Virus record (IMG/VR): IMGVR_UViG_3300043788_000131
Location: 1-64,000 of that record
Source: a virus
Direction: 5' to 3' (one strand)
Length of the DNA: 64,000 nucleotides
The notes beneath the pieces were generated by a model that was not told the origin of the DNA, searched no databases, and worked only from the letters and a program-made list of their open reading frames with translations. Position 1 is the first letter of the stretch, and each line of letters starts with the position of its first letter. Below are positions 9,595 through 35,853 of the stretch, piece after piece. The translations under genes were made by a program, and so were the position numbers.

Positions 9595-9671
9595 TGGTCA
9601 GGATGGCGGGCCTCGATCCCGCGACCTTCGGCTCCCCGAGCCGACGCTCTACCAAGCTGAGCTACATCCTG
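9595..9671 (-). tRNA. tRNA-Pro (GGG), with C33
   Basis: The acceptor CAGGATG/CATCCTG has the C1-G72 pair expected of tRNA-Pro, A73 and CCA. The stem TCGGC/GCCGA closes the loop TCGGGGA, which places anticodon GGG after C33. Its first two bases are also the last two bases of the CCA end of the neighbouring tRNA-Pro(TGG). Confidence 0.85.
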
Positions 9672-9749
9672 GTCAGGGCGGTGGGATTTGAACCCACGAA
9701 TCTCCGGGTTCCAGGCCCGGCGGGGACGGCCAAACTCCCCCACGCCCTG
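9670..9749 (-). tRNA. tRNA-Pro (TGG), with C33, overlapping the next tRNA
   Basis: The acceptor CAGGGCG/CGCCCTG, A73 and CCA are clear. The stem CCGGG/CCCGG closes the loop CCTGGAA, again with C33. The D arm is unusual (GGGGA ... TCCCC). The CA of its CCA end is shared with the 5' end of tRNA-Pro(GGG), so both cannot be cut intact from one transcript. Confidence 0.82.
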
Positions 9750-9756
9750 TTAGGGT

Positions 9757-9832
9757 TGGAGCTCCCGGAGCGATTCGAACGCCCGACCACCGGATTCGTA
9801 ATCCGGGACTCTATCCGCTGAGTTACGGGAGC
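9757..9832 (-). tRNA. tRNA-Arg (ACG)
   Basis: The stem CCGGA/TCCGG closes the loop TTACGAA. A34 would need deamination to inosine by the host TadA to read CGT, CGC and CGA. The acceptor GCTCCCG/CGGGAGC is perfect, with U73 and CCA. Confidence 0.9.
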
Positions 9833-9840
9833 AAGCCGTC

Positions 9841-9993
9841 GTGACCAAAAAGCAGAAATGGTCGTATCTCTGGCGCCATCTTTATGGTCGCCTCATGATT
9901 TCAGAGGCCGCCGCCAAGCATGCCGCGGCCCTCGCGATTGAGTGGCTGGAAAAGCACGAGAAGCCCAAGGTTGGCACCCCCGATGAGATTTGA
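9841..9993 (+). CDS. Possible small basic protein, 50 aa
   Basis: A GTG-started frame fills the gap between two antisense tRNA genes and ends inside tRNA-Glu(CTC). The sequence is helical (AAAKHAAALAIEWLEKHE) with a basic start. No ribosome site is obvious, so it may be fortuitous. Confidence 0.4.
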   Translation: MTKKQKWSYLWRHLYGRLMISEAAAKHAAALAIEWLEKHEKPKVGTPDEI

Positions 9994-16351: not shown

Positions 16352-17125
16352 TTATGCCGTGAAGAAGGAGCGCAGCTTGGCAAGGAAGCCGACCGGCGCG
16401 GATGCCGGCTGCGGCTGCGGCTGCGGCTTTGCCGGCGCCGGGACGATCGGGACACCGATGGTCATGGTAGGTGTGCTTGTCGTCATCGTCATCACCGGCG
16501 GTGGTATCGCCGCGATCTCCTTTGCCTTCGTCAACCAGTGCGCATAGGCCCCTGCGAGTTTGGTGTCGTAGTGGTTGGCCGCATACCCCGCGCCATTGTA
16601 GCCCCGCGCGAACGCCGCCCAATTATGGCCGTTGAGGTATCTGGCGAGGTTGTTGTGCTCGATCTCGCGGATCAGGCACTCGACCTGGGCCGGGACGCCG
16701 CCGTGGATCATGTAGTCGACCATGTGACGGGCATCGACGAACCCGAGTTCCTTGTAATTGAAGCCCATGGTCTGCCCGACGCCCCAGGAGGCCGAGCGGC
16801 AGGCCGCCTCGTCGTTGATGGCGCGGGCTTGCGCGAGGATGGCAAGACGTCCTGCTGAAGTCCCCTCGTTGCGGTACTCGGTCTTGGGCTGCCATGACGT
16901 GTAGGCGAGCCCGGCGGCGACCGCGTGGTCGACCGCGGCGCGGTCAAGTTCGAGAAGTTGCCGATAGAAGACATGCTTCTCGAACAAAAAACTCGGCGTG
17001 CGGCCGTCGATTTCGAGGCTATGGCCGTCCGATTCGATCTCGACGACGGCGAGCAGCGCCGCGAGGTCGAACTTATAGGTCTTGGCGACCGATGCGATTT
17101 CACGAAGAACTGCTGGTTCGAACAT
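16352..17125 (-). CDS. N-acetylmuramidase endolysin (DUF3380 type), 257 aa
   Basis: The enzyme would cleave peptidoglycan at lysis. The N-terminal 190 residues match the N-acetylmuramidase family: LAALLAVVEIESDG with the catalytic Glu, a GRTPSFLFEKHVFYRQL segment, ASWGVGQTMGFNYKELG, and ARGYNGAGYAANHYDTKLA. A Thr/Pro-rich linker (PAPAKPQPQPQPA) le​ads to a short helical C-terminus (GFLAKLRSFFTA) that may touch the membrane. No signal peptide is present, so a holin is needed. The start at 17125 overlaps the stop of the preceding gene. Confidence 0.92.
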   Translation of the reverse strand: MFEPAVLREIASVAKTYKFDLAALLAVVEIESDGHSLEIDGRTPSFLFEKHVFYRQLLELDRAAVDHAVAAGLAYTSWQPKTEYRNEGTSAGRLAILAQARAINDEAACRSASWGVGQTMGFNYKELGFVDARHMVDYMIHGGVPAQVECLIREIEHNNLARYLNGHNWAAFARGYNGAGYAANHYDTKLAGAYAHWLTKAKEIAAIPPPVMTMTTSTPTMTIGVPIVPAPAKPQPQPQPASAPVGFLAKLRSFFTA

Positions 17126-17487
17126 TACACTCCTCCATTTGGGACATAGCAAAGGACAGCGCGCGGCGCCAAACGATGGCTGGGGTTGCCATCGTGACTT
17201 GGTCCGCCCAGGAAGATGATGACGTGGCCGGTAGGATTGCCCTTCAGGTATTGTTCTTGGCCGACGATCTTTTTCGGTGGCACCTCGTACTCGGTGCCGA
17301 TGTCCTCATGGAATTCGCGACCGAGGACCTTGTCGTCACGATCGTCAGTGATGACGGCGTAGGTTTTGCCGTCGCGAACACGCACTTCGTCGGCGTAGTA
17401 GGCGTCGCCTTCGCCGCAGCATGAAGTGCCCGGTGTTGCGTAACCCCCGCGGCCGACCGTGTCCGGCTGCACTAGACCACGAACCAT
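17125..17487 (-). CDS. Body of a secreted protein, separated from its signal peptide by a frameshift, 120 aa
   Basis: The frame from an ATG at 17487 contains CCGEGDAYYADEVRV, YAVITDD, HEDIGTEYEVPPKK and a C-terminal VLCYVP. This resembles small exported alphaproteobacterial proteins with a conserved CC...D...VPP...C pattern. It lacks a signal peptide; one is encoded just upstream in another frame (17472-17594). Either a frameshift mutation split one gene or the two are separate overlapping genes. Function unknown. Confidence 0.6.
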   Translation of the reverse strand: MVRGLVQPDTVGRGGYATPGTSCCGEGDAYYADEVRVRDGKTYAVITDDRDDKVLGREFHEDIGTEYEVPPKKIVGQEQYLKGNPTGHVIIFLGGPSHDGNPSHRLAPRAVLCYVPNGGV

Positions 17488-17634: not shown

Positions 17635-20600
17635 TTACGGCTTTGACGTCTTGGTGGGCCTTGGCCAGTAGCGGTGGCGTTCTTCCGTGGTGGCCTGCTG
17701 CAGGATGGCCTTCTGGTCCTCGTTGTCGAGCCGCGAGAACTGGTAGACGTCTTGGGACTCAGTACCGAGCTTCGAGATAGAATCGGGCTTCATGCCTAGC
17801 TTGATGAGCTTTTGCCGGGCCTCTTGCGTGCCGGTCCAGTCCTTATCGCGCTTGGCAATCAGGTAGCTTTGACGGGCCTCCATCATCGCTTCCATGTTCT
17901 CGCCTTTTTCGAACGACTTCTTTCCTTGCCCCTCATTATAGAGGTAGGCGATGCGGTTCTGGATCGCGTTCTTCTCGACGTAGGCCGGCGCCGGGCCAAA
18001 GCCGAGCACACTCAGGCCCACGCCCGCTGACGTGATGGCGTCCCAGAGTTTTTCGGGGTGCGCGAATATCTCCCCCTTGCTCGGGAACGGATGACCGGAC
18101 AGGCTCGCCGCATGCTTGGCGCCCGACACCGACATCGGGTTGAATTGATCGCCGTAGATGTGCTTGAGCAGTTGCCACGTCCGCTGATACCAGGGCGCGT
18201 TCTCGTCCGTAATGTTGTAGCCGTAATAGTTTCGGTTGTTCCACATTTCCACGAATGGCTCATACATCTGCTTGTTCCAGAGCATCGCGGCCGCGCCCAT
18301 CGGGATGTTGCCGCCGCGCTCCTGGATGTGCTTTTGCAGCATTGGCAGTTCGCGATTGTAGAACATCGTCGTGACGCGCCGCGGGGAGCCGTCCGGGTTC
18401 AGGCCGCCGATCCGCGGGAATGTGTAGTCATCGCCAGTCGGTTTCTCTCCGGTCATCAACCAGGTAATGAGGCCGGCCAACATGGCGCTGATTGCGACAT
18501 AGGCCAGGGCGAACGGAATTTTGTTGGTAGCGTCGCGGGCAATCTTGCGTGGGCCAGACGGAGCAAACGCCGGAAATACGCGCCCAAGGGGGCGTGTGCC
18601 GGCCTCCATCGCCGCGCCACCGAATTCGCGCACAAAGCCGAGGTTCCAGCCAAGGGAGAGGAACGAGGCTTTCGCGGCGTCGGCCAGGATCGGGTCCCAG
18701 GGCAGGTTCTTGTAGTTCATTTCGCCGTAGCGGTTGTCGATCGACTTTGCGATTGCGTGCGCCGCGACGCGCCGGCTCACATCGTCAAGCTGGTATTGCG
18801 GGTTCCGCCTCATCAGGTCAGCGTATGCTTCCAGGTAGGCGTTGGTCTTCAGGGCCGGAATCCATTTCTCGAACAAGGCTTTTTGCGTGAGCTCAATCGG
18901 CAAGCGCATGCCGCCCCAGAAGTATTTAGCCCAATCTGGCACCCCAGCTTCGCCCTTCCTGATCCTCCAATAGGCCTCCTTGAATGCCTTACTAGCAGCG
19001 ATTTTCTGCTGCTCATCCATCTGCGGGATGAAGCCGCCGTCGTTCATGGCGGAGACCATGTATCTTTCGTAGGGCGAGCGTGCAGTATCGGCCTTGAGCC
19101 ACGCTGCCCTGCCTTCGGCACCCCTCCTTGGATGCGTCCAGAATGGGCCGAGCGGGGCGTCCATGAGAGCCTTGAGGGCCGTCGCTGGATCGTGGCCTTT
19201 CACGAGGGCACTAACGGCGCGGGCGGTGCCATTGGCCCAATCAATGCCGACAACGTGCAGCGGATGGAACGCCGAGAGCGAGAGCTTTATCGGAACCCAC
19301 ACATTCTTCAGGCCCATCCAGGCGCGGAAGGTCCCGCCCCAGAAGCCTTGCGCCATCCAAAGGCCCTTGGCGTCGACCATATTCTTCCAAAGCTGCTGGA
19401 CATCCGGCGCAATAACCCATTGCTTGCGATCTGGGGCATTGATGATTTGCCAGCCGCGCTTGACCATGGCCCCGGTGGCCGGGGAGCCCGAGCCCTCCCA
19501 GGCAAGCCCCATTTTCTTGAGCTCGTAGATCATCGCCATCTTGTTGCGCTGGTCTGCGCCGGAGATCAGGCGGTGATTGATGGCGTCGATCGGGTTGGGA
19601 AACTTCAGCTTCATTCCCGCTGCGAGGCCATCCTCGATAAGCTCGTAGGTCCGCTTTTTTTGAAACCACGTCGGACCATGCTGGGCCGTTTGCGTTCGCG
19701 CCCAGGCGGAGTAGTCATCCGGTTTTTGCCAAACGTGCGGAAAATAGTTCTCAACGAAATCAGCCTGTGAACCGTATTGCTTGCCAAGGGCCCAATCTGT
19801 ATCCATCGCGTTGCGATAGTGCGCAGCCATCAGGGCTTCTCTGAGATTCGTCGGGCGCTGTCCGGTCTCTGCCTCTTTCATCCAGCGCAGGCCTTCGGCG
19901 GCGGGCTGCTTGTTCCAGTACTCCCAATCCTTATGGTCACGATCAATGATGCCGTCTTTCTCGCTTTGAGAAGCGGACTTGAACTTCGCAATGACCGGCA
20001 GAGCCCGCATTGCATCGTCGCTGAATAGCTCGGGCTGGAAGGACTTCATCCAAAATGCCTTGACCTGCTTCGCAACAGGCATTTTGGCGATACCGCCCGT
20101 GATCGGGCGCGGCGGTCCTACTCGGGGTGGTTGCTGGCTGGCGCCGCGCGGCCGGGGCGGCTGCGGGCCGTAGTTGGTGCGGGGGGCTTCGAAGCCGGAG
20201 CCGAAAAGGTCGCCCTGGCGCTCGGTCACCTCAAAGTTGGCATCGAACCAATTCGCAAGGTCGGCAAACTGCTTGTCGTGCTCCCACGCGGCTTGTTTGG
20301 TGTGATCGTCGAGCGGCCGCAATTCCTGGTGCCGCGCGGACTCCCCGGTGGCGCTACCCTCGATGCGCTCTTTGATGCCTCCAGCCATGCGGGCGATATG
20401 CTCGGGGCCGGGGTGAGTCTCGCGATACCGGCCATGGTTTACCGCCACGTTGGTCGAATCGGAACTATCGAACGGATAGAGGTGTGCCTGTGACTGCGCC
20501 CTCATCATGTGGATGCGGGGGCGGACGCCGCCGTTGCCGTTCTCGTCCTCGACCTGCTTGACGAAGGCCAAGGCCTCGTCGATGCGGCGGTGCCATTCCG

Positions 20601-23600
20601 GTGTGCCGGGGTCTTTGAAGTCGCCGGAGCTTCCAATTCCCAGGTGGTTAAAGCCGCCCTCCAGCAGCCATCGAAGATAGTCGAGGCTTTCGTGCATGTG
20701 CCAGATCGGCATTGCTCGATCGCTTGGCAGGTTCGTTTCGCGAACCAGTCGCGCGTTTTCTTGTTCCGTGCCCCCGATGATGTCGGGAATGACAGCGACC
20801 GCCTGGGGCGATCGGTCGAGAATGCCCTGCGCCCACTTCTCGAAGCCCTCCACGGCCTCGGGGGTGAACGTGCCTTCGCCGCGGCGCCACATCGAGAACG
20901 CGCCGTTGTCGACAAGTAGAATGCCGTCTTTGCCAACCAACCTGATCGCATCGTCAAGCTGTTTGCCGAGTTTGATGCGCGTCCCGTAGGAGACGCAGAA
21001 CGAGCACCCCTTCAACTGTTCAAGCGCGCTAAGAGGATTGAGCGGCAGCCCGAAGACGACATGCTTCTGCATGTCATGCTTGTCGCGGAACAAGTCTTTA
21101 GTGTCGGAGAACCCGACGATGTTTTCCGGGTGAGCAAACGCGAAGTCTAACTGGCGGGTGGCTGGCGGCGCCTGAGCGCGACCATTTCCTCCGCTTGCTC
21201 GATCAGCCACTCGCGGCTCGGGTCTTCCTGCGGGAGCCGGAGCACGTCGTTCAAATGTTGCTCCCACATCGCCAAGGTGCCGGAATACATTTCCGGTGGA
21301 TCTATCATCACCTGGGCGGGGTTGGCTTGCGGCATTGGGGATGCTCCTTCGCAGGGTATCAGCCGCCTGCTTAATATAGGGTTGAAGGCCGAGGTCTTTA
21401 ATCTCGGCCCGGTAGTCGTTCGTGGTGTGGAAGTGCAGGATGCCGGCCTGACGCAGCACTTCGCCGATCAGGACGTGGTGCATCTTGTTGGCAGTGGCGA
21501 TCGGCAGAAGTTTCCGCTCGTGGACCAACTCGGTGAGCAGCGGAAGGATTTGCTTCTGGCCGATAAACGAGGCGATGCGGCCGAGCGACGCTGCATTGTG
21601 CTTGGCGTCGGGCCCCAGAAGCGATCGGCCAAAATCAGTCAGTGCCCCGCGAGTGACATTGCCTCCGTGGCCGTGTGCCCAGATGGACTCGACCCCAGGC
21701 CAGCCGAGCATGCCGATGTCGCCTTCGCTCAGGGCGCCATTGCTTGGGTGGGTGTGGTGAACGGCAAGTCGGTTGTTGGCGTCGGCGAAGGCCTTCAGCA
21801 TATCGTCGTCGAAGGCGACGTTCTTCGCTTGGCCGCGTAGATGCAGGACCGCGTTGCCCTTCTCGTCGATGGCGAGCAAGTGTTCCAGGCCGGTGCTTAT
21901 GCCCTGGCGGAGGAGATAGTCCTGTGCCTGCTGGCCGGCCGGCCGATTGGGGTCGATGTAGAAGGGGCCACGATCCTCGGCGACCATGGGGCCGGCGGGG
22001 GCGGGGCGGGGCGGACTCTTCCACTCGAACGGTGCTTGGTTCGGATCAACGGGGATGTCCCAGCGGTCGCGAAGCATATTGCCGGTGCTGTTAGGGACCC
22101 CTATATTTTCAGTGGAGGGTGTTATGGCTTCTGGGGCATATGTCGGCGACCACGATCTTTCGGTCGTGTACGTGTTCGACACGTCGGACAAATTCTCCGC
22201 AGTTCGCTCTTCCGGGGCCTGGGAGCGGTTTTCGATGACCGTCGGTGAACTCGCGGCGGACTGGACGCCTGTCTCTGATCCTTCCGAAGTAGCAACCTTG
22301 CTCAAGGCCGCACGAACTTCGCTCTCGGAAATGCCGGTGCGCGCCAAGTAGGCGTCCCATGCGCCCTGGTAAAGGTCACGGCTCCGCTGCATGTCAGCGG
22401 CCATGTCCTTCGTTTCCTGCTCACTCAGGTCAGCTTGGTCTCTATTGCGCCACCGCTCAAAGAGCTTGTGGCCCTCCTTCTTGGCCGCCTCCATTTCGCG
22501 AATCGGCAGGTAGTACTCGACTAGCTGCCCATTCGGCATCCGCAGATCGAACACCGCGATGCGGAAGCCCCATTCCTTCGGCTTGAGAACCTTTGCGGTA
22601 TCGCTTTTGATGATGCTCGCGCCGATCGGCGGCAGCCGCGCGGCAATTTCAGGCAATTCCCGGATGTCATTGAGGATCGTCTTGAACCGGAAGCTGTCCC
22701 GAAGGTGCTCGATCCCGTGCCAGGGCTTTTGTTTCAGGATGGATGGCCGCGAGCCCTTTGAGATTATGTTCTCGGGGAGCTTCTCATTCCATTTGGACTC
22801 GGTGCCAAAATCTCGGTCTATCTGGTCAATGAAGTCCTGGACGATCGGCTTGTTCGCCTCGCTCAGCGCTTGCAGTTGGCGCGCCTTCTCTTCTGGCGTC
22901 GCCTTGCGGTCGATCGGGTTTACGATCTGACTTTCTTCGTACTCGGCAGGATGGTCGGTCCGCCGGGCGAGTTCGGCGATCACGCCGCGCAGCTTGTCCC
23001 GCATTTCGGCGAGCTTGCCGGCGTAGGGCGATTGCTGGCCCTGCTGCGCCTCCAGTTCCGGCAGTGCCTTCTCGGCGGCGTCGATGCGCGCCTGCATCCA
23101 GTCGCCGCGGCTCATGGCGACGGAACGGGTGTCCTTGTCGATTTCATGAAGGGCCTTTTCGATTGCGCGCGTGAAGGCGCCAGCGTCGACAAGCAGGTCT
23201 TTCGGGATGTTATGGAGCTCCGAGGCGGAGATTGTTTTGCCGCCGTCCGTGAGTCCAAACACCATCTGAGTGGACTGATCGCCGGACGCGATCTCGGCCT
23301 CCAGATCGGCACCGAGCACACGGCCGAGCTTCAGGTTGCCGTCCGGCGCCTCCATGACTTTCGGGGTGAGCTCCTTGGCGGCCGTCCACCGGCGCGTGAA
23401 AGTCTTGCCCCCGATAGTGGCCTCGAACGGCTCGAAGTCGCCGAAGGCGTTGGCAAAGGCCGTCGTAAGGTCCTTTTGGTTGGTTATGTCTTCGCCGTCG
23501 ACGTTGATCTTGTACTTTGCGTTTTCGTCGCCGCCTTTCTGAGCGTCGATGATGTCTTGCGCTGCCTTGTTGGCTGCCCCCGAAGCCCTGCTACTTTCAT

Positions 23601-26600
23601 CGTACTTCTTGCCCTCGATCGTGATGCTGCGCTTGGCGGCTTCGGCTTCGACCACATCGCGGCGCGCCTGCATGTCGTCGGCCGCGGCCCGCGTCTTGGC
23701 AATCGCTTCCGGGAAATCGGCAATGGATCGTTTCGCCCGGTCGATCGCGTCCTCAATGCCGTCCATCTTGCGGCGGAAGCCGCGTTCCTGCATTTCGAGC
23801 TTCTCGATCTCGCCGGAGAGCTTCACGCGCTCCAAGAGCATCGGATCGCCGGACGCGAGTGCGGCGATCTCCGCCATCGAGACCGCCTCCTCGTCCGCGA
23901 AGTCCATTTCGAAGGAGCCGTCATACTTGCGGATGCCATTGACCATCCGCAGCTTTTCGGCGTTCAGATCCCACATCTTGGCGTCGATGGTGCGCTCGGT
24001 GACGTAGTTGTGCTCTTCGAGCTCGAAATCCTTCCCGTATTTTTCGAGAAGCTTGTTGCCCTGGCGCACCCACCGGCCGCGGCGCTGCTCAATGTCAGAC
24101 GGCTTCCAGGTCACGTCTTCATGGTGGCCGCCGACAATGCGCTCCTGGGCGTTCATGCCGGCGCCCATGCGCTGGGTCGAGCCGATCAACACGCGGACCT
24201 CGCCAGCGTTGACCGAGTCGATCATTTCCTTTTTTTCGGCGTCGTTGTTGGCTTCCTGCATGAAGCGGATTTCGTCGGCAGGAACCCCGCGGGCGATGAG
24301 GTTGTCCTTGAGTTGCTGATAGGCGTTCCAGCCGCCTTGCTGAGCGCGGCGCAACTCCGCCATTTCGTTCGGGTCGTACTTTTCCAGTTCGTCGTTCGCG
24401 CGCCGCTCGCCTTCCTCGTCGTTGGCGGCTATAGCGTCCCTGCGCTTGGCGATCAGCTTATCGTATTGCTTGAGGATTGCCGCATCGCCTCTGGACTTGG
24501 GTACGCTGCGATCGAGAAAGATTAGCTGCGTGCCCTTGTCCTTATTCCACTTCTTGTAGATGCGCGCGACCTCGTCCGCGGTCACCTCAAGTTTGCCGCC
24601 CTCTTCCTTGCTGGGGTGGTTTGCGTCGACGGCGCGCACGTCGAGCGACACTTTGCGCGCCCGGTCCATGAGGCGCAGCCGTTCCGCATTGCGTTCTTTC
24701 TGGTCCGAAATATCGTCCAGGTGATCGAACCCGTTGATTATTTCGCCAAGGGCCATGATCTGGGCGGCGGTCGGCTTCAGCACATGGGTCTGCATGCCGC
24801 CACCGGCGACCTTCGGGATCGGGAAGTCGGCGCCGTTATTGTCCTCGGCGTACCAGCGGTTGATGTCCTCCTGCGTCACCGAGTCGGTGAAGGAGTGATA
24901 GAGGTCCATCAGCGCCCGCATGTTCGACCACGAACGGCCGAGACGGGTGACCTCTTTCAAACCGTGGCCGGATTCGGTCGGCTCCCACTTGGGCTCCGCG
25001 GAAACGAACTGTGAGCGCCACGCATCGAAGTGTTCGAGGCCGAGTTCGCGCAGTTCCTTGGCCGCGAGGTAGCGCATCATCGTGTACATTTCGACGGCGC
25101 TATTTGAGATCGGCGTGCCAGTCAGGAAGGTTACGGCTCCGGTCGGGCTCTCGTTGAGCACCTTGATCTTGTTGTAGAGGTCGAACGCCTTTTGCGACCC
25201 GCTCTTGTCACCCATGCCGCGAACGCCCTGCATCCGCGAGGAATAGAACAGGTTCTTGAATTCATGAGCCTCATCGACGACGAGGTGGTCGACGCCCATT
25301 TGCTCGAATGTGAGCATGCTGTCGCGCCGGCCGCCACGAAGCCCGGCCAGTCGCGCCTCGATCTTTGAGACCAGTCGCTCCGCTTCCTTGACCGTGTAGT
25401 GCTTGAACCGTCCGGGCGGGGCGTCCGCTTCGGCGTCTGCGAGGGCTTGCTGCGCGACGCGCAGTTCCTCTTCCAGGAAGCGAGTTTCGGTCTCGGGCGC
25501 GATCTTGATAAAGCCGAAGGACGAATGAGGGACGATGACCATGTCCCAATCGCCAGTCGCAATCCGGGCGAACAGCTTGCGGCGGTTCTTCTTGTCGAAC
25601 TGGTTCTTGCCGGCGGCGAGCACCCTGGCGCCGGGATACAGACGATACGCCTCGCTGGCCCACTGCTCGACCAGATGGTTTGGCACGGCGATCATGGGCT
25701 TTTTCACAAGCCCCATGCGCCGCTTTTCCATGACCATGCCGATGGTGGTGAACGTCTTGCCGGCACCGACGACGTGATCGACCAGCATGTTGCGTTCGTA
25801 GATGCCGCGCCAGATCGCATTGTAGATGTGCCGGCGCAGCGAAATATCAGGGCTCTTGCCGGGAAGTGTCAGATGGCGCCCGTCGTGCTGCCGCGGCGTG
25901 CGGGTATTCATTTTGTCGTTGTAGATGCCGACGAGCTCCCGGCGCCGATCGCCGTCGCGGTAGACCCAATCGGCGAAGGCCTGCGTAATCTCGCGTGCCT
26001 TCAGCGCCACGAGTGCGGTCGCCTCCTTGTCGACATGCTCGCCAACCACGCGCCCATCGGCGCCGTATGTCGGCGCCATCACCTTGGGCAGCTTGGAATT
26101 AAGCAGCCCGCGGATGATGGCGTCGGGCGGCATGTCGGGCGTGCCCCATTCCGCGTGCTTGCCCTCGCCGTATTCGGAAGTGAGGAAGTTGAAGGCGTTC
26201 GTGGCCTTCGCGTAATTGACCGTCGCGCTGTCGACGCCGAGAAGGTGCTTCGCAAAATCCTCGTAGACCTTGGGCGGTATCCAGTTCGACCCCATGAGCG
26301 GGGTGACCTGATCGGCGGTCCACTCTTCCGGCTGGACGGCTTCTAGCTCCTTGACGTTCTTCTCCAGGCCGGCACCGCGCGCGGCAGCGAGCTTGCGGCG
26401 CACTTGGCCGGAGAGGTAGGCGCTGCGCGGCTCCCAGCGCTGCAATTCCGGGTCATAGAAGGCCAGCGGCTTGTCACCGGCGCTCAGCGCCTCGCCGACC
26501 TTGTCCTCGGGGATGTCGAGCAGCTTGGCGACGCGGGGCACGTCAATGAAGCCGCGTTCGGAGAGCGAGATCGCCAGAGCGTCGGCGGGCGAGGCCGCCT

Positions 26601-29600
26601 TGTCCGGCGGCTCGTATTTGAGGATGACCCGCTTGGAGAGGATGGCGGCCTGCTTGGCGCTAGCCTTGCGGACCTTGCCGCCGGTGCGCGCCGCCTTGGT
26701 GTTGGTGATGGCCGGCCGGTAGCCGCTTTCGAGCGACATCAGCAACGGACCGTCCGGCATTTCGTTGAGAAGCCGCATGTTTGATGGATCATGCAGCAAG
26801 CCATTCTTGTCGGTATAGCCGCGATAGGCCGCGGCGAGCCGGCCGCGGTTGCCCTCCATCACTTTCGCCGGTGCGTCCTGGGTCTCAATCTCGATCTGCC
26901 GGCGTAGCGCATCGCGCATTCGGGTGAGATCGGACACCCGATCGAAGCGGGTGGCGCCCAGGCGCAGGGGCTGCGGCACTTCGTTGTTCGGGAAATACTT
27001 GCGCTCGTAGACGTTGCGGGTGCCCTGTTTGACCCTGACGCCCTTTGCGTCGACCTTGGGCTCCAGGGTGAACCAGCGGCCCTCATTGTCCATCATCAAC
27101 TGGCGCGACCAGGGCGTGTCGGCGTCGACAACGCGCTTGATCGGCTCGAAGTCGCCGTTTGCGGTCTCGCGTTCCGCGATTTGGGTGAGCGCGCCCTTGT
27201 CGTCGTACTCAAGATGGCCGGGCTCAAGCCCGCGCAGCGCGATCTTGATGCTGTCGGATAGCGTCTCGAAACGCTTGAGCGTGCGGTCAATGACCTCCTT
27301 GCCGAGGTCGAGCTTGTTCTTGGGCAAGCGCTCGACGGCCTTGTCCAGCAAGTCCTGATATTCGTCCTTGTCCGCCAGCTTTACGTTGAGTTTGCCGCCG
27401 GCACGCATGGTGCCGGAGCGCTCCAGGCGCCCGACGATCATATCGGGATGATCGGCGAAGTAGCGGTTGACCTTCAGCGGCTCGCCGCCGAGCGGGTCCT
27501 TTACCTCTTCGGTATCGAGCCATGGGACCTTGCGCTGCAGTTCGCCTCGCGCCCTGGCGCGTAGGTCTGCGTCCTCTCTGCTCTTGCCGGGGGCTTGCGT
27601 CGCGTCGATGAGGTCCTGGATTTCCTTCTCTTCCTCCGGCGTGCGGCGCTGCATTGCCACGAGGTCGGTAACAACTTCGGTGCGCGCGTTCTCCTTGAAC
27701 GCCGTATCAGGAAGGCGAATGGCGCCGAGAAGATCGGCTTTTACCGCCATCTTCTCGCGCGCGGATGCTACCTGCGCATCGAGCAGATAGTGAGAGACCA
27801 CGGCGATGTGCAAGCCGCCCGGCTGCAGGGCGTCAAGCGACGCGAGGAAGAATTGATTGTGGATCGACTGCCCGTAGAGTTCGGGCTTGTGCTGGAACCG
27901 CAGCGATTCCTTGCCGAAGGGCGGGTTGCCGATCGAAAGCACGAATTCGCCGTCCGGCAGCGGCAACTTCTCGAAGCCGGTGTGAAGGACAGTCTCTTGC
28001 GGGTAAAGTGCCTTGGCGATGCGCGCAGTGATGCTGTCGATCTCCGCGCCGATGAAATGCGTCTGCCCGGCGAGGCGTTCGGGAATGAGGCCGAGGAAAT
28101 TGCCGGTCCCCATCGAGGATTCGAGTGCGAGGCCGCCCTTGAACCCAAGCCTCTCGGCAATCTTCCAGGCGGCATCGACGATCGCCTTGGAGGTGTAATG
28201 GGCGGCGAGCGTGGAATGCTGGGCGGCGCGAAGCTCTTCCTTGGTCAGGAGTGGTTCGAGGGTCTCGCCGCGCTCCTTCCAGTCCGGCTTGAACTCATTG
28301 GTGCCGGGCTGGCGGAAGGCGTTCGCCAGCCCGCCCCAGCCGACATAGCGGGCGAGGATGCGCTGCTCGGCCGACGTCGGGCGTCGGTCCTCGGCCTCGA
28401 TCTTCTTGAGGGTCTCGATGGCCGCGATGTTGTCCCAGAATTTGACGCCCTCGGAGCCCTTGCCAAGTTCCGTCTCGTTGGTGATGCGGTAGTTGACCGC
28501 CGGGACGCTGGGCGCCTGCTCGGGCTTTACATCTGGGAGGCGGGGGGCGGATTCTTTTGGTACTCGCGCTCCATTTCCCGCAACTCCTCCTCCTGCTCGT
28601 CGTCCTCCGGCGGAGCCTCCGGCTGTAGGAGGATGTGCTGCGGGAGCGCCACTTCCCGCGCCTCCGAAATCGAATAGTGACGGTCCTGCATCAGGTGCTC
28701 GATTTCCCTTTGCGCCAGGACGGCCGCCGCGTGCACCTCCTCCGGGTACTTGCCCTCCTGCTTGAGTTTGCGGACCTTCTCCGGGAGCCACTCCGCCCAA
28801 TGCTTTCGGGCCAGACTTTCCAGTTCTTGGACGCTCATCAGGGGTCTCCCAATCAAACAGCGACGTTTGACCAGCCTTCTTGGGCTTCTCAGTGATTTGT
28901 GGTGGCGGGGCCGGCGGCGCAACCTGATCGGGGAAGGCGTTCTGCGGCCTTGCAAGTTCCCCAAGGCGCTTTTGTGCATACTCTTTTTGCGCTGCTTCAA
29001 ATTCGGCACGGTTGATGACGGTGTTACCGGGTCTGGACGGCTCTACGCCGCGGCGCGCTCGCACTTCCCATTTTGGACCAAACCGATCCCTCATAAAATC
29101 GAGGAAGCGGGGCCCGGTAGCCAAATCTATAATCTCTGGGTAAGTGAGTTCGCGGGGCCCAGACGGGGCAGCCTCGCTTACCTTTTTTGCCTCTACGGAA
29201 GCCGCTGGTGCGCGTTCCTGTTTGGTGGGGGCTACTCGCGCCTTCTCGGCTTCATACGCTTGGCGGGCCGCATCGCGGACGTCGTAGGCCTTGCGCAGCG
29301 CACTTCCTGGTTCGCCCTTGCCGGCGGCGCCATACCTCTTATCACCAGCCTCTTTGCCGAATGCTTTCTGAAGTTCGGCCGACCATGCATCATCGGCCTT
29401 CTGAAGGGCCATATCGAGTTCGGTAAGACCGTGAGGCTTTGGTTGAGCCAGCAGGTCGAGTTGATTGCGCTGGTCACCAAACAGGCCGCCCTCAAGTGGC
29501 TTCTGCGCGACCTTTGGCTTTAGGGGCTCGCCTGCTCGCCGCCGGGCAAGCTCGGCACCGCTTCGCTGCTCGCTGCCGGGGATGACAAGTTGGGGGCGTC

Positions 29601-32600
29601 CTTCGGCTCCGGGCTCTGCGCCGTATTTGGGCTCGGGCTCTGCGAGTCGTCGTCCCATGCGCTCGTCGCCAGTCCGTGGGCCATTCTCCCCAGCCCCGGT
29701 TGGCCGGTTGACGCCGCCACCCTCTTGCCCATGCGCCCGAGCAGAAGCGCCCTGGGTTTTCGCAGCCGCCGCCGCTTTAAGCTCATTAGAGGTTACCTTC
29801 GGTATGCCAAGCGCCAAGCCTTCCTCGGTCGAGACCTTGGCTGCCTCGCGAGCGTAGAACTCAAGAGCTTCCGCAATCTTTGCTGTTCCGAGAGCCCGAC
29901 GAGTCCGCGGGTCGTAGAACAGCCGCACCAGATAGTCGACGTCGTTCTTGTATGTATCGAACGCATCTTCCTGCGCAAGGTAGTCGTCGATCTTCATGCC
30001 CTTGGAGCGAACGTCCGCCGTTCGTTTGACGGCCTCCAATAGGTCAGCAGTGATGTCCAATTCCTCGGGGGTGCGGCCGGCGTCGATCTCGGCCCGCATC
30101 TTTGCCCATGTTGGCGCCGCGGCTGTAAGCGCATTCGAGATCGACTTCACGTCATCGTCGGTCGATTCCGTGATGCGCGCGAGGATGTCAGCGTCGCCAT
30201 AGGCCTTGGCCAGGATGGCGTTGCGAACGCGGGTCAGGCCCTCAGCCGAGAGACCGCCGCCGGCACTCGTGAGATTGCCCCGCTCGGACGCCGGCAGTGC
30301 ACCAACAAATGACCGGACAAAGGCGCGGTTCTCCAAAGAGCCAAGGTCGCTGTCACGTATCTGGTCGAGCATATCCGGCGTGACATGGCCTGCGTCGGCC
30401 ATAGCGCGTTCAGGAGCGGACATTGAAAGGGTGGCGGCCTGATTGGCGGCAACCACGAAATCGCGACGCTCGGCCTCGTCCAGGTCGCTGACGCGCTGTC
30501 TGACCAGGACCGGCTCTTTGTACTTCGAGACATCGACGCCCTGGGCCGTGAGCCAGTCGCGGTATTTCTTGGCGTTCGCCCCGTGGCCGCTGATGACGCC
30601 GTAGATTTTGCGCAGCGCCAGCACCCGGCCATTGCCGCTCTCGACCATCTTGTCGGGCCCGACGATCGGGGCGCCGCGATCGGCCTCAGCCGAGTAGCCC
30701 AGGCGCTCGGGATCGAGTTTGGTGGCAATCTCGCGGATCTGCGCTTGGCTCGCCGCGCGATCGCGTTGGCGTGGCTGCAGGGCGGCGTCGTAGCCCTTGT
30801 CTGCTGACGTGATAAGGTCGGCCGCTTCAACAACAACCGGCTTGACCTTTACAGACGCGCCATCGGCCGCGGTGACCTTGTGGTCACCGATTTTTTCTAC
30901 CGGCTGTCCGATCAGGGGAGCGCTGGAGGCTTTGGGGGAAGTTTGAGATTTCCGAGGGGGGGCTTCTGCACGCTGCCGAGGCTCGCGGGGAGTGCTTTCG
31001 GGAGGGCGCTGCCCGCTGGCGGTGCCGCGAACGGGATGCTCTCCTGCTTCGGCACGACCGGGCTTCCCAGCGCCTTCGGCGGCGACAGGGCCGGCACCGC
31101 CTTCGGCAGGGCGAGCTTCTTCGCCGCCCGGAACTCGTTCAGGCGCAGCCGCGGGAGCCGCGGGAGCCGCCCCACCAGTTCCGGTGCCGCGTGCTTCAGG
31201 GCGTGACTTGCTTGCCCCTCGGGGCGATAAAGCTGCGGCGACTTCTTCACCGAATTCCTCCTTGACCTGCTCGGGCGCCAGCAGGCCATCGGCCACCAAA
31301 TCGCGGGCAACCGCGACTTTGAAGGCCATGTTGGGGGCAAGCCCCTCGCGAGCGTGAATTTCGGCGGCATGCGCGATCGAGCGCGGCCGCAGGGTATTGG
31401 TGGGGATCTGGTTCTCGCGAAGCATCTTCTCGATGGCTTCGCGGTGCGCCGCGGTGACGTGGATCTCGGGAGGTTCCGGTGTGCGAACAGGGCCGGAAGT
31501 CGCCCCTGTTTTCGCACTAGCGGGCTTGGCGCCCACGACCCCCACCCCTCCGGCGGCCGTGGGTTCCCGCCCACCCGATACATTATATATGGCATCCGAC
31601 ACGGGCCGGGTGAGGTCGCCCTTCCGCCACTCCCGGAACTCGTCGATCGAGAGCGCCCGCATGCCCCCCATCTGGCTGGGGCGCTTCCCGTCCGTCGCCT
31701 TATAGGCCTCGATCGCCTCGATCGGGGTTTGAAAGCCGGCGAAAACCTTGTGCTGCTTGAATTTGCCGGTGTCCCGGTCGAGTTCGTCGATCACATAGAC
31801 CGTGGGCGCCGTGGGATGCTGCCCAAAGTAGGCGTCGAGGTGATCCCCATCGGCGCCGGTCGTACCCTTGAAGTACCCGTGCGCGGTCGGAAAGTGCTGG
31901 TCGTAGGGTGTGCCGTCCGGTGCGATCCCCTTGCGGACGCCGCCGGCTCCGGCTTCGAGCGTCGCATCCATGCCGTTCCAAGTGACATGGACCCGCTGGG
32001 TATTGTTCGCCTCGCCCTGGGCGTGGCTGTAGTTCTCGTTGACCAGATCGCCGGCACGTTTGACGTCGGCGGCTGACTTGAGGTCGATCGGCTGATCGCG
32101 CGTTCCCGGTCCGGCTTCCTCGGCGCCCGTCATGCCGCCGTAGCCTTCGTGCTCCCGGATGATCGCTTCCTTTTCCTCCGGCGACCAGCCAGCGATTTCG
32201 TCCTCAGTGAAGAAGCGACGCAGGATTTCGTCATCGCTCGCGAGGCCCCCGGCGGGGTGCCCGCGGGCTACATCCTCGGGCGCCATCGTCGAAATATCGC
32301 GCTTCGAAAAACCCTTCGCCGACAGGGCGTCGGCCTTGGTCATATACCTGCGCATATCTTTGAGATTGGCGTTGCGCAGTTCGTCGTCGGTGAACCAGAA
32401 ATCCCTCTTCAGTTGGTCCTTCATTCCAGCGAAAGCGCGGCGTTTTTGTTCCTCCGCCGTTGGTGCTGGCGTTTCGTCCCACTGTTTCTGCCAAGCCTGA
32501 TGCGCAGCCGTGCGCGCGGCTTTTTCTTCTTCTGGGATCTGCGATTCTTCGTGCTTGCGCCGGTCTTCGTCGGCAGTCGTGTCCCCCGTGCCCGTGCCCG

Positions 32601-33741
32601 TGTTGGTGGCGCCCCGATTCTTCAGCCCTTCGAGGCCAGCGTGACCCGCGCCGAGGACGCCGCCGGTTAGGGCTTCAGCCGCAATACGCTTTGGATCAAA
32701 CTCATATCCGGCCTTCGGATTGTAGAGTTGGTCGATCTTGGCCTGGATGGCTGTTTGTAGCTCGCCGATGCCGGTGAAGGCGGCAGCGTCAATAGTGCCA
32801 TCGAGCAGCATCTTTACGGCGAGGCTCGCCGCCTTCGGCGCAAATCCTCTCAGGACTGCAGCGAGCGGAATGCTCCCGAGCGTCGCTTGCAGTGCACCTG
32901 ACTTGGACGCCGCATCGCGAGCCGTGGCTTCGTCAGCGCCCGCCTCCTTCGCCGCCTTGTAGGTCTCGCCGACGCCCGAAAGGCCAAAGAGGGCCGCACC
33001 GCCTACGATCGCGGCGGCCTCGGGCACGCCTGGGATCATTGCCGCGCCGATCACCGCGCCAGCGGTGCCGAGGCCCGAGCCGACTTGGCCGGTGAAGGAC
33101 GCCTGCTCTTCTTTGGTAAGCGGGATGTTTTTTCCGAATTGCTCGACCGCCTCGCCGGCTTTGTAGAGCGAGGATTCCTCGGGTTTTGGAGCGGGCTCGT
33201 TTGCGGTGATGCGCGTGTCAGCCGTGGCGAGACCCTGAAGGGCGTGGCCGGCCATGGAGATAGGGGCTCGCGCCGCGGCTCTGCCAAGAGTGCTGGCTGC
33301 GTCGAGCGCACCGGGGATACCAAGTAATGGAACGGCGCCGCGTACCGCGGCCTTGCCGAGACTGCTGGCAATGCTGCCGAGCGTCGATGGCTGCTGTGCC
33401 GGTGCCGCCTGGGCCTCTTCGGGTTGGTCATTCGGGCGCGGCGGCTCTTGTACGCCGCCTGCCGGCATGCCGAATTCCGCGAAGTCTGGGCCCTGGTTGG
33501 CGTGCTCTTTATCAGCACCAAATTCCGCGAAGTCGAGATTCTCCGCCTTTTGCCGCTCTTGGGCGCGCTGGGCGAGCTTGTCCTGTTGCTTGCGGATAAG
33601 CCGATTGACTACCGTCTGTGGATCAACGGCGCCGTTCTGGGCAAGGTCCGGCGCGCGCTGACCGATAAAATCTCTGAGGCTCTGACCTGGGTCCTGGTCA
33701 GTTTGCGGGTCGGTCGCCCCGAGCGCGTCTTCGAGAGCCAT
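17635..33741 (-). CDS. Giant polyvalent virion protein, 5368 aa (ParB-like, DNA methyltransferase, SNF2 helicase, JAB, TGT/DpdA-like domains)
   Basis: One uninterrupted frame of 16.1 kb. In order: hydrophobic Gly/Ala helices (about 115-320) that may cross membranes; an InPase-like domain (about 590-700, DGDHLDAYFG); a ddrB-type ParB domain (about 950-1310, IVGPDKMVESGNGRVLALR); an N6-adenine DNA methyltransferase (about 1750-2050, ESSMGTGNFLG, NPPFG); an SNF2-type helicase (about 2640-3250, GAGKT, DEAH, LTGTPISNS, QRRGRWVRQ); a possible RelA/SpoT-like segment (about 3660-3800); a JAB metalloprotease (about 3930-4050, HHTHPSNG and Asp); a TGT/DpdA-like domain (about 4200-4450, VDNGAFSMWRRG, PFDSSDST); then C-terminal polyvalent-associated regions with one membrane helix near 5080. 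Proteins of this type (P1 DarB, phage polyvalent proteins) are packaged and injected to block host defences. Gly/Pro linkers separate the domains. Its place after internal virion genes supports packaging. Confidence 0.9.
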   Translation of the reverse strand: MALEDALGATDPQTDQDPGQSLRDFIGQRAPDLAQNGAVDPQTVVNRLIRKQQDKLAQRAQERQKAENLDFAEFGADKEHANQGPDFAEFGMPAGGVQEPPRPNDQPEEAQAAPAQQPSTLGSIASSLGKAAVRGAVPLLGIPGALDAASTLGRAAARAPISMAGHALQGLATADTRITANEPAPKPEESSLYKAGEAVEQFGKNIPLTKEEQASFTGQVGSGLGTAGAVIGAAMIPGVPEAAAIVGGAALFGLSGVGETYKAAKEAGADEATARDAASKSGALQATLGSIPLAAVLRGFAPKAASLAVKMLLDGTIDAAAFTGIGELQTAIQAKIDQLYNPKAGYEFDPKRIAAEALTGGVLGAGHAGLEGLKNRGATNTGTGTGDTTADEDRRKHEESQIPEEEKAARTAAHQAWQKQWDETPAPTAEEQKRRAFAGMKDQLKRDFWFTDDELRNANLKDMRRYMTKADALSAKGFSKRDISTMAPEDVARGHPAGGLASDDEILRRFFTEDEIAGWSPEEKEAIIREHEGYGGMTGAEEAGPGTRDQPIDLKSAADVKRAGDLVNENYSHAQGEANNTQRVHVTWNGMDATLEAGAGGVRKGIAPDGTPYDQHFPTAHGYFKGTTGADGDHLDAYFGQHPTAPTVYVIDELDRDTGKFKQHKVFAGFQTPIEAIEAYKATDGKRPSQMGGMRALSIDEFREWRKGDLTRPVSDAIYNVSGGREPTAAGGVGVVGAKPASAKTGATSGPVRTPEPPEIHVTAAHREAIEKMLRENQIPTNTLRPRSIAHAAEIHAREGLAPNMAFKVAVARDLVADGLLAPEQVKEEFGEEVAAALSPRGASKSRPEARGTGTGGAAPAAPAAAPERVPGGEEARPAEGGAGPVAAEGAGKPGRAEAGEHPVRGTASGQRPPESTPREPRQRAEAPPRKSQTSPKASSAPLIGQPVEKIGDHKVTAADGASVKVKPVVVEAADLITSADKGYDAALQPRQRDRAASQAQIREIATKLDPERLGYSAEADRGAPIVGPDKMVESGNGRVLALRKIYGVISGHGANAKKYRDWLTAQGVDVSKYKEPVLVRQRVSDLDEAERRDFVVAANQAATLSMSAPERAMADAGHVTPDMLDQIRDSDLGSLENRAFVRSFVGALPASERGNLTSAGGGLSAEGLTRVRNAILAKAYGDADILARITESTDDDVKSISNALTAAAPTWAKMRAEIDAGRTPEELDITADLLEAVKRTADVRSKGMKIDDYLAQEDAFDTYKNDVDYLVRLFYDPRTRRALGTAKIAEALEFYAREAAKVSTEEGLALGIPKVTSNELKAAAAAKTQGASARAHGQEGGGVNRPTGAGENGPRTGDERMGRRLAEPEPKYGAEPGAEGRPQLVIPGSEQRSGAELARRRAGEPLKPKVAQKPLEGGLFGDQRNQLDLLAQPKPHGLTELDMALQKADDAWSAELQKAFGKEAGDKRYGAAGKGEPGSALRKAYDVRDAARQAYEAEKARVAPTKQERAPAASVEAKKVSEAAPSGPRELTYPEIIDLATGPRFLDFMRDRFGPKWEVRARRGVEPSRPGNTVINRAEFEAAQKEYAQKRLGELARPQNAFPDQVAPPAPPPQITEKPKKAGQTSLFDWETPDERPRTGKSGPKALGGVAPGEGPQTQAGGQVPGGGARGGRPGAKGNRAPDAGPSLFDFGGAGSGAPAAHPPTAGGSAGGRRAGGGVAGNGARVPKESAPRLPDVKPEQAPSVPAVNYRITNETELGKGSEGVKFWDNIAAIETLKKIEAEDRRPTSAEQRILARYVGWGGLANAFRQPGTNEFKPDWKERGETLEPLLTKEELRAAQHSTLAAHYTSKAIVDAAWKIAERLGFKGGLALESSMGTGNFLGLIPERLAGQTHFIGAEIDSITARIAKALYPQETVLHTGFEKLPLPDGEFVLSIGNPPFGKESLRFQHKPELYGQSIHNQFFLASLDALQPGGLHIAVVSHYLLDAQVASAREKMAVKADLLGAIRLPDTAFKENARTEVVTDLVAMQRRTPEEEKEIQDLIDATQAPGKSREDADLRARARGELQRKVPWLDTEEVKDPLGGEPLKVNRYFADHPDMIVGRLERSGTMRAGGKLNVKLADKDEYQDLLDKAVERLPKNKLDLGKEVIDRTLKRFETLSDSIKIALRGLEPGHLEYDDKGALTQIAERETANGDFEPIKRVVDADTPWSRQLMMDNEGRWFTLEPKVDAKGVRVKQGTRNVYERKYFPNNEVPQPLRLGATRFDRVSDLTRMRDALRRQIEIETQDAPAKVMEGNRGRLAAAYRGYTDKNGLLHDPSNMRLLNEMPDGPLLMSLESGYRPAITNTKAARTGGKVRKASAKQAAILSKRVILKYEPPDKAASPADALAISLSERGFIDVPRVAKLLDIPEDKVGEALSAGDKPLAFYDPELQRWEPRSAYLSGQVRRKLAAARGAGLEKNVKELEAVQPEEWTADQVTPLMGSNWIPPKVYEDFAKHLLGVDSATVNYAKATNAFNFLTSEYGEGKHAEWGTPDMPPDAIIRGLLNSKLPKVMAPTYGADGRVVGEHVDKEATALVALKAREITQAFADWVYRDGDRRRELVGIYNDKMNTRTPRQHDGRHLTLPGKSPDISLRRHIYNAIWRGIYERNMLVDHVVGAGKTFTTIGMVMEKRRMGLVKKPMIAVPNHLVEQWASEAYRLYPGARVLAAGKNQFDKKNRRKLFARIATGDWDMVIVPHSSFGFIKIAPETETRFLEEELRVAQQALADAEADAPPGRFKHYTVKEAERLVSKIEARLAGLRGGRRDSMLTFEQMGVDHLVVDEAHEFKNLFYSSRMQGVRGMGDKSGSQKAFDLYNKIKVLNESPTGAVTFLTGTPISNSAVEMYTMMRYLAAKELRELGLEHFDAWRSQFVSAEPKWEPTESGHGLKEVTRLGRSWSNMRALMDLYHSFTDSVTQEDINRWYAEDNNGADFPIPKVAGGGMQTHVLKPTAAQIMALGEIINGFDHLDDISDQKERNAERLRLMDRARKVSLDVRAVDANHPSKEEGGKLEVTADEVARIYKKWNKDKGTQLIFLDRSVPKSRGDAAILKQYDKLIAKRRDAIAANDEEGERRANDELEKYDPNEMAELRRAQQGGWNAYQQLKDNLIARGVPADEIRFMQEANNDAEKKEMIDSVNAGEVRVLIGSTQRMGAGMNAQERIVGGHHEDVTWKPSDIEQRRGRWVRQGNKLLEKYGKDFELEEHNYVTERTIDAKMWDLNAEKLRMVNGIRKYDGSFEMDFADEEAVSMAEIAALASGDPMLLERVKLSGEIEKLEMQERGFRRKMDGIEDAIDRAKRSIADFPEAIAKTRAAADDMQARRDVVEAEAAKRSITIEGKKYDESSRASGAANKAAQDIIDAQKGGDENAKYKINVDGEDITNQKDLTTAFANAFGDFEPFEATIGGKTFTRRWTAAKELTPKVMEAPDGNLKLGRVLGADLEAEIASGDQSTQMVFGLTDGGKTISASELHNIPKDLLVDAGAFTRAIEKALHEIDKDTRSVAMSRGDWMQARIDAAEKALPELEAQQGQQSPYAGKLAEMRDKLRGVIAELARRTDHPAEYEESQIVNPIDRKATPEEKARQLQALSEANKPIVQDFIDQIDRDFGTESKWNEKLPENIISKGSRPSILKQKPWHGIEHLRDSFRFKTILNDIRELPEIAARLPPIGASIIKSDTAKVLKPKEWGFRIAVFDLRMPNGQLVEYYLPIREMEAAKKEGHKLFERWRNRDQADLSEQETKDMAADMQRSRDLYQGAWDAYLARTGISESEVRAALSKVATSEGSETGVQSAASSPTVIENRSQAPEERTAENLSDVSNTYTTERSWSPTYAPEAITPSTENIGVPNSTGNMLRDRWDIPVDPNQAPFEWKSPPRPAPAGPMVAEDRGPFYIDPNRPAGQQAQDYLLRQGISTGLEHLLAIDEKGNAVLHLRGQAKNVAFDDDMLKAFADANNRLAVHHTHPSNGALSEGDIGMLGWPGVESIWAHGHGGNVTRGALTDFGRSLLGPDAKHNAASLGRIASFIGQKQILPLLTELVHERKLLPIATANKMHHVLIGEVLRQAGILHFHTTNDYRAEIKDLGLQPYIKQAADTLRRSIPNAASQPRPGDDRSTGNVFRHLGDVGATFERRAPAPAGRPEPRVADRASGGNGRAQAPPATRQLDFAFAHPENIVGFSDTKDLFRDKHDMQKHVVFGLPLNPLSALEQLKGCSFCVSYGTRIKLGKQLDDAIRLVGKDGILLVDNGAFSMWRRGEGTFTPEAVEGFEKWAQGILDRSPQAVAVIPDIIGGTEQENARLVRETNLPSDRAMPIWHMHESLDYLRWLLEGGFNHLGIGSSGDFKDPGTPEWHRRIDEALAFVKQVEDENGNGGVRPRIHMMRAQSQAHLYPFDSSDSTNVAVNHGRYRETHPGPEHIARMAGGIKERIEGSATGESARHQELRPLDDHTKQAAWEHDKQFADLANWFDANFEVTERQGDLFGSGFEAPRTNYGPQPPRPRGASQQPPRVGPPRPITGGIAKMPVAKQVKAFWMKSFQPELFSDDAMRALPVIAKFKSASQSEKDGIIDRDHKDWEYWNKQPAAEGLRWMKEAETGQRPTNLREALMAAHYRNAMDTDWALGKQYGSQADFVENYFPHVWQKPDDYSAWARTQTAQHGPTWFQKKRTYELIEDGLAAGMKLKFPNPIDAINHRLISGADQRNKMAMIYELKKMGLAWEGSGSPATGAMVKRGWQIINAPDRKQWVIAPDVQQLWKNMVDAKGLWMAQGFWGGTFRAWMGLKNVWVPIKLSLSAFHPLHVVGIDWANGTARAVSALVKGHDPATALKALMDAPLGPFWTHPRRGAEGRAAWLKADTARSPYERYMVSAMNDGGFIPQMDEQQKIAASKAFKEAYWRIRKGEAGVPDWAKYFWGGMRLPIELTQKALFEKWIPALKTNAYLEAYADLMRRNPQYQLDDVSRRVAAHAIAKSIDNRYGEMNYKNLPWDPILADAAKASFLSLGWNLGFVREFGGAAMEAGTRPLGRVFPAFAPSGPRKIARDATNKIPFALAYVAISAMLAGLITWLMTGEKPTGDDYTFPRIGGLNPDGSPRRVTTMFYNRELPMLQKHIQERGGNIPMGAAAMLWNKQMYEPFVEMWNNRNYYGYNITDENAPWYQRTWQLLKHIYGDQFNPMSVSGAKHAASLSGHPFPSKGEIFAHPEKLWDAITSAGVGLSVLGFGPAPAYVEKNAIQNRIAYLYNEGQGKKSFEKGENMEAMMEARQSYLIAKRDKDWTGTQEARQKLIKLGMKPDSISKLGTESQDVYQFSRLDNEDQKAILQQATTEERHRYWPRPTKTSKP
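21147..21335 (-). CDS. Nested gene inside the giant ORF, 62 aa
   Basis: In the frame shifted from the giant protein, an ATG at 21335 is preceded by GAAGGAGC with 6-base spacing, a near-ideal ribosome site. The product (GTLAMWEQHLNDVLRLPQED, then EWLIEQAEEMVALRRR) has the composition of a folded helical protein, whereas the giant frame here is an Ala/Pro/Arg linker between the JAB and TGT-like domains. Function unknown. Confidence 0.6.
   Translation of the reverse strand: MPQANPAQVMIDPPEMYSGTLAMWEQHLNDVLRLPQEDPSREWLIEQAEEMVALRRRQPPAS
28527..28838 (-). CDS. Nested gene inside the giant ORF, 103 aa
   Basis: An ATG at 28838 follows GGGAGA with about 6-base spacing. The out-of-frame product starts MSVQELESLARKHWAEWLPE, continues with helices (YPEEVHAAAVLAQREIEHLM, SISEAREVALPQHILLQPE) and ends in an acidic EELREMEREYQ region. 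It looks like a real helical protein of a kind I recall beside polyvalent-protein genes. The giant frame at the same place is a Gly/Pro/Ala linker just before the methyltransferase. Function unknown. Confidence 0.68.
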   Translation of the reverse strand: MSVQELESLARKHWAEWLPEKVRKLKQEGKYPEEVHAAAVLAQREIEHLMQDRHYSISEAREVALPQHILLQPEAPPEDDEQEEELREMEREYQKNPPPASQM

Positions 33742-35214: not shown

Positions 35215-35853
35215 ATGGAGATTCGTTCGCGGAAAGAGGCACTAGCGGCGGGTGCCAAGTTCTATTTCACAGGCAAGCCCTGCTCAAAAGGGCATGTCTG
35301 TGAGCGCTACGCAGACGGCGGTGACAAAGGCCGATGCCGTCAGTGCGCCAAAGAGCGCGTCAAACGCGCTTTGGGGAGATACCGCGCGAGGCATAAAGCG
35401 AAGATTGCCGCTGACAGCGCCGCGCACTACCAAGCAAATAAGGCCGAGAGAAATGCCGCCGCGGCAGCGTGGCGAAAGGCCAACCCCGAACGCACGCGCG
35501 CCTTTACGGCAAAATGGCAAGAAGTCAACCGCGAGGAATACCGCAAGATCGGCCGCGAATGGGGCCAAAACAACAAGGACAAGATGCGGGCACAGAGGGC
35601 ACGGCGCCGCGGCTCTGAAGGCTTCCACTCAGAGGCAGATGTGCTTGAAATCCTCAAGCTGCAGCGAGGGCGGTGCGCCATGCCGTCTTGCCGAAAGAAA
35701 CTTGGTAAGTATGAGGTGGATCACATCGTTCCGATCAATGGCGGCGGGTCGAATTGGCGCCAGAACATTCAACTGCTCTGCCCCAGGTGCAATGCCAGTA
35801 AGGGTGCGCGCGACCCGCTGGACCATTCGCGCATGCTCGGCTTTCTTCTTTAA
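35215..35853 (+). CDS. HNH endonuclease inserted against the late operon, 212 aa
   Basis: The ATG at 35215 is chosen by analogy with its relative at 13490; an upstream TTG at 35197 is possible. An N-terminal treble-clef-like part (FYFTGKPCSKGHVCERY, CRQCAKE) precedes a long basic coiled coil, and the HNH core follows (CAMPSCRKKL, YEVDHIVPINGGG, NIQLLCPRCN). It lies between two minus-strand virion genes, the position of a free-standing homing endonuclease. Its stop and that of the convergent gene share the bases TTAA. Confidence 0.9.
   Translation: MEIRSRKEALAAGAKFYFTGKPCSKGHVCERYADGGDKGRCRQCAKERVKRALGRYRARHKAKIAADSAAHYQANKAERNAAAAAWRKANPERTRAFTAKWQEVNREEYRKIGREWGQNNKDKMRAQRARRRGSEGFHSEADVLEILKLQRGRCAMPSCRKKLGKYEVDHIVPINGGGSNWRQNIQLLCPRCNASKGARDPLDHSRMLGFLL

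Follow-up and report, generated by a model that had tools for sequence, protein, structure and literature searches.

What is a base-exchange domain related to tRNA-guanine transglycosylase (TGT) and to the phage enzyme DpdA doing inside a viral protein of 5,368 residues? The question is raised by the window analyzed here, a 64,000-nt stretch of DNA (positions 1 to 64,000) that forms part of the 101,797-bp IMG/VR virus record IMGVR_UViG_3300043788_000131, and in which a first-pass annotation had reported such a domain from five motifs read in the letters alone. All five motifs were found in the minus-strand open reading frame (ORF) 17635..33741, a single frame without a stop, which encodes a giant DarB-like polyvalent protein (PHROG 10089, DarB-like antirestriction, E = 1.5e-285). 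Judged from sequence comparison, residues ~4224–4505 of this protein are a complete DpdA-type 7-deazaguanine base-exchange domain, not a tRNA TGT.

The domain occupies 20227..21072 on the minus strand. The position first proposed for it, 20390–21150, fell in the right region, but the homologous part runs from ~21072 to 20227, and 21150–21073 is linker. These limits are based on the match to PHROG 887, a hidden Markov model (HMM) alignment to the DpdA of phage 9g, the AlphaFold barrel and an alignment with solo proteins that includes the C-terminal tail. M4224 aligns with the start methionine of the solo genes, the end lies near residue 4505, beyond a conserved HQxxRPL tail, and Pro/Ala-rich, linker-like sequence is found on both sides. 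A separate gene starting internally at M4224 (position 21072) was considered and rejected, since no Shine-Dalgarno-like stretch lies upstream and no stop follows the domain.

The motifs DNGAFS (at residue 4278), PDIIGG (4319), WHMHE (4347), GIGSSG (~4368–4373) and FDSSDS (4424) are all read in the ORF, and six active-site-like positions, all encoded on the minus strand, are invariant across the 158–160 sequences aligned at each. These are D4278 of DNGAF at the end of barrel strand 3 (20908..20910; Asp in 160/160), which aligns with DSGAF of 9g DpdA; D4320 of PD at the end of strand 4 (20782..20784; Asp in 160/160); H4348 of WHxHE in strand 5 (20698..20700; His in 160/160); G4370 of GSSG in strand 6 (20632..20634; Gly in 160/160); H4411 in strand 7 (20509..20511; His in 159/159), which aligns with the conserved His196 of 9g DpdA (KVHGFG); and D4428 of SSDS at the end of strand 8 (20458..20460; Asp in 158/158), the proposed nucleophile, which aligns with SCDSS of 9g DpdA. 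His196 is the residue that separates DpdA from DpdA2, where it is absent (PMC6884629). The claim of a TGT/DpdA-like domain with a catalytic Asp pair is borne out by the invariance of D4278, D4320 and D4428 and by the match to PHROG 887 (E = 1.9e-25).

This PHROG, annotated as queuine tRNA-ribosyltransferase, is also the family of 9g DpdA (2e-98) and of MED16 DpdA (3e-70). A first HMM of the domain, built from the window sequence and 15 viral relatives, recovered 9g DpdA at 9.8e-7 among 18,621 ORFs, with DNGAF aligned to DSGAF. A wider family model extended the 9g alignment through to SSDS/SCDS; as this model contained 9g itself, its 104-bit score is circular rather than independent and was not used. 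With tblastn, the domain retrieved 89 phage records (down to 2e-23) and 12 plasmid records, and MED16 DpdA (gp38) matched at 33.5% identity over 73% of the query (2e-18). In one scan, 15 of 19 viral loci were 55–65% identical to the domain. Sequence searches of Pfam, NCBIfam, PADLOC and PDB returned no match to it.

AlphaFold modeling predicted an eight-stranded alpha/beta barrel, with pLDDT 85.7 and pTM 0.83 from 16 sequences and pLDDT 90.5 and pTM 0.85 from 81 sequences. In the (beta/alpha)8 model the invariant residues sit at the C-terminal ends of strands 3, 4, 5, 6, 7 and 8, so the structure-model check suggested earlier did return a barrel with the Asp pair. Among predicted viral structures, several fold matches carry the annotation queuine tRNA-ribosyltransferase. 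A weak barrel match was also obtained to BFVD entry A0A6J5LU57, an ART-PolyVal protein that could be a further, independent case of fusion. The fold by itself points to a TIM barrel; the assignment to DpdA is made because of sequence and genomic context.

How the domain came to lie in a giant protein was addressed through its distribution. Among ~130 viral loci, it was fused in only one besides the window, the 102,449-bp contig L001; elsewhere it is a solo gene, in named phages and plasmids with checked annotation and in bacterial loci. In the tree, the two fused domains make up a single clade (100/99 support) that sits within the solo genes. They are ~62–65% identical, with dN 0.30 and dS 1.84 between them (dN/dS ~0.16; dS near saturation), which indicates purifying selection on the domain. 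Misassembly was ruled out as the source of the fusion, because the independent 102-kb contig holds the same arrangement at this identity. Conversely, the module was found in 0 of 30 DarB-like giants of viral contigs, an absence that is certain only where the giant is whole (e.g., L186), and in neither of two named-phage giants (Atu_ph08 and POI1126). Simple inheritance of the fusion with the giant was likewise rejected: the giant closest to that of the window, L186 (51% over residues 1–3595), lacks the module, whereas the G001 giant, more distant at 31–37% identity along most of the chain, has the module at 62%. The module has therefore moved or been lost, and movement between giants is most likely on these comparisons. 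The pattern indicates that a DarB-like giant acquired the entire DpdA module from a solo phage gene.

Genes beside the solo relatives were compared in 28 viral contigs with such relatives and in 22 control contigs carrying DarB-like giants. A Vut_1/YhhQ-type transporter gene lies <600 nt from the solo domain gene in 10 of the 28, as against 0/22 controls (Fisher p = 0.0013), and a QueD-like PTPS gene lies within 131 nt of it in 3/28, while 1/22 controls carries a QueD-like gene. In named phages, DUF165/VUT transporter genes adjoin the domain gene or are ≤3 genes away (RHph_N3_2, RHph_X2_30 and Pam5), and in Caulobacter phage DMCA a QueD gene is directly upstream of it. Because supply genes sit beside relatives, the family is linked to 7-deazaguanines independently of homology. 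The first-pass annotation had seen no queC, queD or queE; for QueC and QueD this extends to the whole 101.8-kb record, which also lacks a YhhQ/Vut_1 gene, while QueE and FolE were not searched for. Similarly, neither QueC, PTPS nor Vut_1 was found with the fused relative or in the close solo subclade (again with QueE and FolE outside the search). The accompanying statement that DpdA normally comes with preQ0 genes did not hold: the largest group, of 76 phages, encodes DpdA alone (PMC6884629), as does MED16 (PMC8306585).

Other genes were noted near the solo copies. Two viral contigs, L002 (gene at 9149–9988) and L010 (9126–9932), and L225 (1898–2977), an integrative conjugative element (ICE) of Rhizobium plasmid pRACO34Ad, each have a PAPS-reductase-like PP-loop gene immediately upstream of the solo DpdA-like gene; the product is a possible partner enzyme making or altering the base. 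The DpdA-like gene of L225 (CP021372.1 293916–294611) adjoins ICE and TraD genes, which shows that members of the family also occur outside phages. Two Roseiarcus genomes hold a close solo copy, intact in one (L020) and frame-disrupted in R. fermentans (L021). Both give only weak, partial QueC matches in frames of ~400–690 aa, even though R. fermentans has a TGT, which suggests salvage of the base. In a further phage record, an ORF with HxxHH-type motifs (L076, 4419–4946, minus strand) resembles a fatty-acid hydroxylase, by eye only.

The rest of the giant has the features of the DarB-like polyvalent class, with an N6-adenine methylase and SNF2 dyad in one chain together with ParB and InPase modules. 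On the minus strand were mapped an InPase domain (residues 574–707; 31621..32022; PF18823, 6.7e-33), a ddrB-type ParB domain (residues 960–1083; 30493..30864; PF18763, 1.2e-32), the methylase motif NPPF within GNPPFG (residues 1938–1943; 27913..27930; from the sequence and PHROG 11801, DNA methyltransferase) and an SNF2-type helicase motor (residues 2653–2830; 25252..25785; PF00176, 1.7e-8; Walker A and DEAH motifs). Directly N-terminal of the DpdA-type domain is a JAB/JAMM-like motif, HHTHPSNG, read from the sequence (21736..21759, minus strand); the region 3923–4192 is kept in the L186 giant at 33%. Among the viral contigs searched, no relatives were found for the region preceding the domain or for the C-terminal 905 aa. 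Residues 3603–3883 (window 22093–22935) are another module, 43% identical to residues 1091–1365 of the L203 giant, a different position, and the InPase is N-terminal in the window giant and C-terminal in that of G001; these differing positions indicate that modules of giants are shuffled. Named phages with related giants have Agrobacterium, Sinorhizobium and Ochrobactrum as hosts, so the host in the present case is probably an alphaproteobacterium too.

The gene lies among virion and lysis genes. On the same strand are its downstream neighbor, an N-acetylmuramidase gene of the lysis/late class (16352..17152, minus strand; PF11860, 3.4e-45), a neighboring DNA ejection protein-like gene (35850..36953, minus strand; PHROG 4287, 1.2e-9) and other virion genes. 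The window also carries 33 tRNA genes, all on the minus strand between 6355 and 15295, which cover most amino acids; among them are the tRNAs that usually carry queuosine, namely His(GTG), Asn(GTT), Asp(GTC) and Tyr(GTA).

Taking these observations together, we consider it reasonably probable that the captured DpdA within the DarB-like giant modifies phage DNA with a 7-deazaguanine precursor supplied by the host. We infer both that the fused domain performs base exchange and that DNA is its substrate. Packaging and injection of the giant are proposed because the host protein is DarB-like and has virion genes as neighbors; in P1, DarB belongs to the virion head and gives DNA protection in cis, and injection has been proposed for polyvalent proteins (PMC5512222). 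In such a scheme, synthesis of the giant would fall late in infection, and the protein would be packaged along with the genome and reach the next cell together with it. SNF2 motor and N6-adenine methylase would then move along the phage DNA. Riding on this machine, the DpdA module would replace selected guanines, by way of a covalent intermediate at Asp4428, with a 7-deazaguanine (preQ0 or a related base) that the host provides as free base. The same particle would thereby leave an anti-restriction mark of a second kind. In this full form, in which a single injected, motor-driven machine lays both N6-methyladenine and 7-deazaguanine on its own entering DNA with host-derived base, we regard the proposal as tentative and somewhat doubtful.

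Several points weigh against the proposed modification of phage DNA with host-supplied base. Some DpdA-only phages, Orion among them, have unmodified DNA, and phage 7-11 is modified at trace level only (PMC6884629). Profile-profile (HH) comparison with a narrow tRNA-TGT alignment gave no match. In fold comparison with PDB, TrpA came first and TGT ranked 18 (first model) or 27 (second), and since TrpA ranks above TGT, the fold search was dropped as proof of TGT. Base supply is only presumed, because the close subclade of the window domain lacks a transporter or QueD gene, and the virus record may be incomplete.

The rival that fares best keeps the same enzyme and substrate and changes the time and place. 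The domain would act on replicated DNA inside the producing cell, at a late stage and either ahead of packaging or while it proceeds; the fusion would only link it to the packaging pathway, and entry would bring no new activity. The position of the giant gene among late structural and lysis genes of the same strand fits this, as the protein would be made when progeny DNA is abundant, and the other phage DpdAs are solo and presumably non-virion enzymes. The known action of DarB-type giants, however, is in cis and starts from the particle (PMC5512222), and we consider late action unlikely.

A second alternative is that the domain is a tRNA-type TGT acting on phage or host tRNAs, a use that the first-pass annotation had left open beside DNA modification. 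It has in its favor the 33 phage tRNAs, with all four queuosine-type anticodons among them, and the shared superfamily and barrel. The domain nevertheless groups with phage DpdA, and its closest characterized relatives act on DNA (PMC6884629, PMC8306585). The CxCxxC zinc motif occurs in 0/142 family members as against 11/12 tRNA TGT controls, and there is no match to Pfam TGT (PF01702), an absence that is uninformative about DpdA because 9g DpdA fails this model as well. A tRNA TGT is improbable. Least probable of all is a domain that has lost catalysis and is retained for binding DNA or a base. It lies deep within the giant, with linkers on both sides, and none of the fused copies has a known enzyme activity, but all six active-site columns are intact, the fused copies are far closer to each other here (~62%) than over most of the remaining protein (31–37%), and dN/dS is low (~0.16).

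Compared with known systems, the DpdA domain and its carrier each have clear counterparts. The PHROG profile and the HMM place phage DpdA (9g, CAjan; PHROG 887) in one family with the domain, and the two align at DSGAF/DNGAF, at the barrel Asp, at His196 and at the SxDS motif, but phage DpdA is a separate protein rather than a domain of a 5,368-aa chain, and 9g carries a full preQ0 gene cluster, whereas neither a QueC nor a QueD gene was found in the window record. The singleton DpdA of Pantoea phage MED16 comes from a phage that has no preQ0 genes; MED16, with dpdA only, carries dADG-modified DNA (PMC8306585). Its DpdA is a solo 261-aa protein on another branch of the tree. Relative to tRNA TGT, the TIM barrel is common and the Asp positions correspond by published DpdA/TGT homology, but the window domain has no zinc motif and no Pfam or profile match and is ~100 residues shorter. 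DarB-like proteins (P1 DarB and those of Agrobacterium phage Atu_ph08 and Ochrobactrum phage POI1126) likewise have the methylase-SNF2 core, InPase and JAB-like region; the DpdA module is present in the window giant and absent from the 30 related giants and from those of Atu_ph08 and POI1126.

The polyvalent-protein survey (PMC5512222) makes no mention of TGT, queuine, deazaguanine or archaeosine, and no paper describing the combination of DpdA with a giant protein was found in the literature library searched, which does not cover the wider literature. Both the enzyme family and the class of giant protein are known; what is new is the fusion, which would bring a DNA-base-exchange activity into the repertoire of polyvalent-protein modules. 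Small, intact solo relatives, such as the 282-aa protein of L002, are suited to direct biochemistry. In the literature found, solo enzymes produced in the infected cell account for the 7-deazaguanine marks of phages; with a virion-type, DNA-tracking copy, if real, base exchange could arrive together with the genome, ahead of all phage gene expression.

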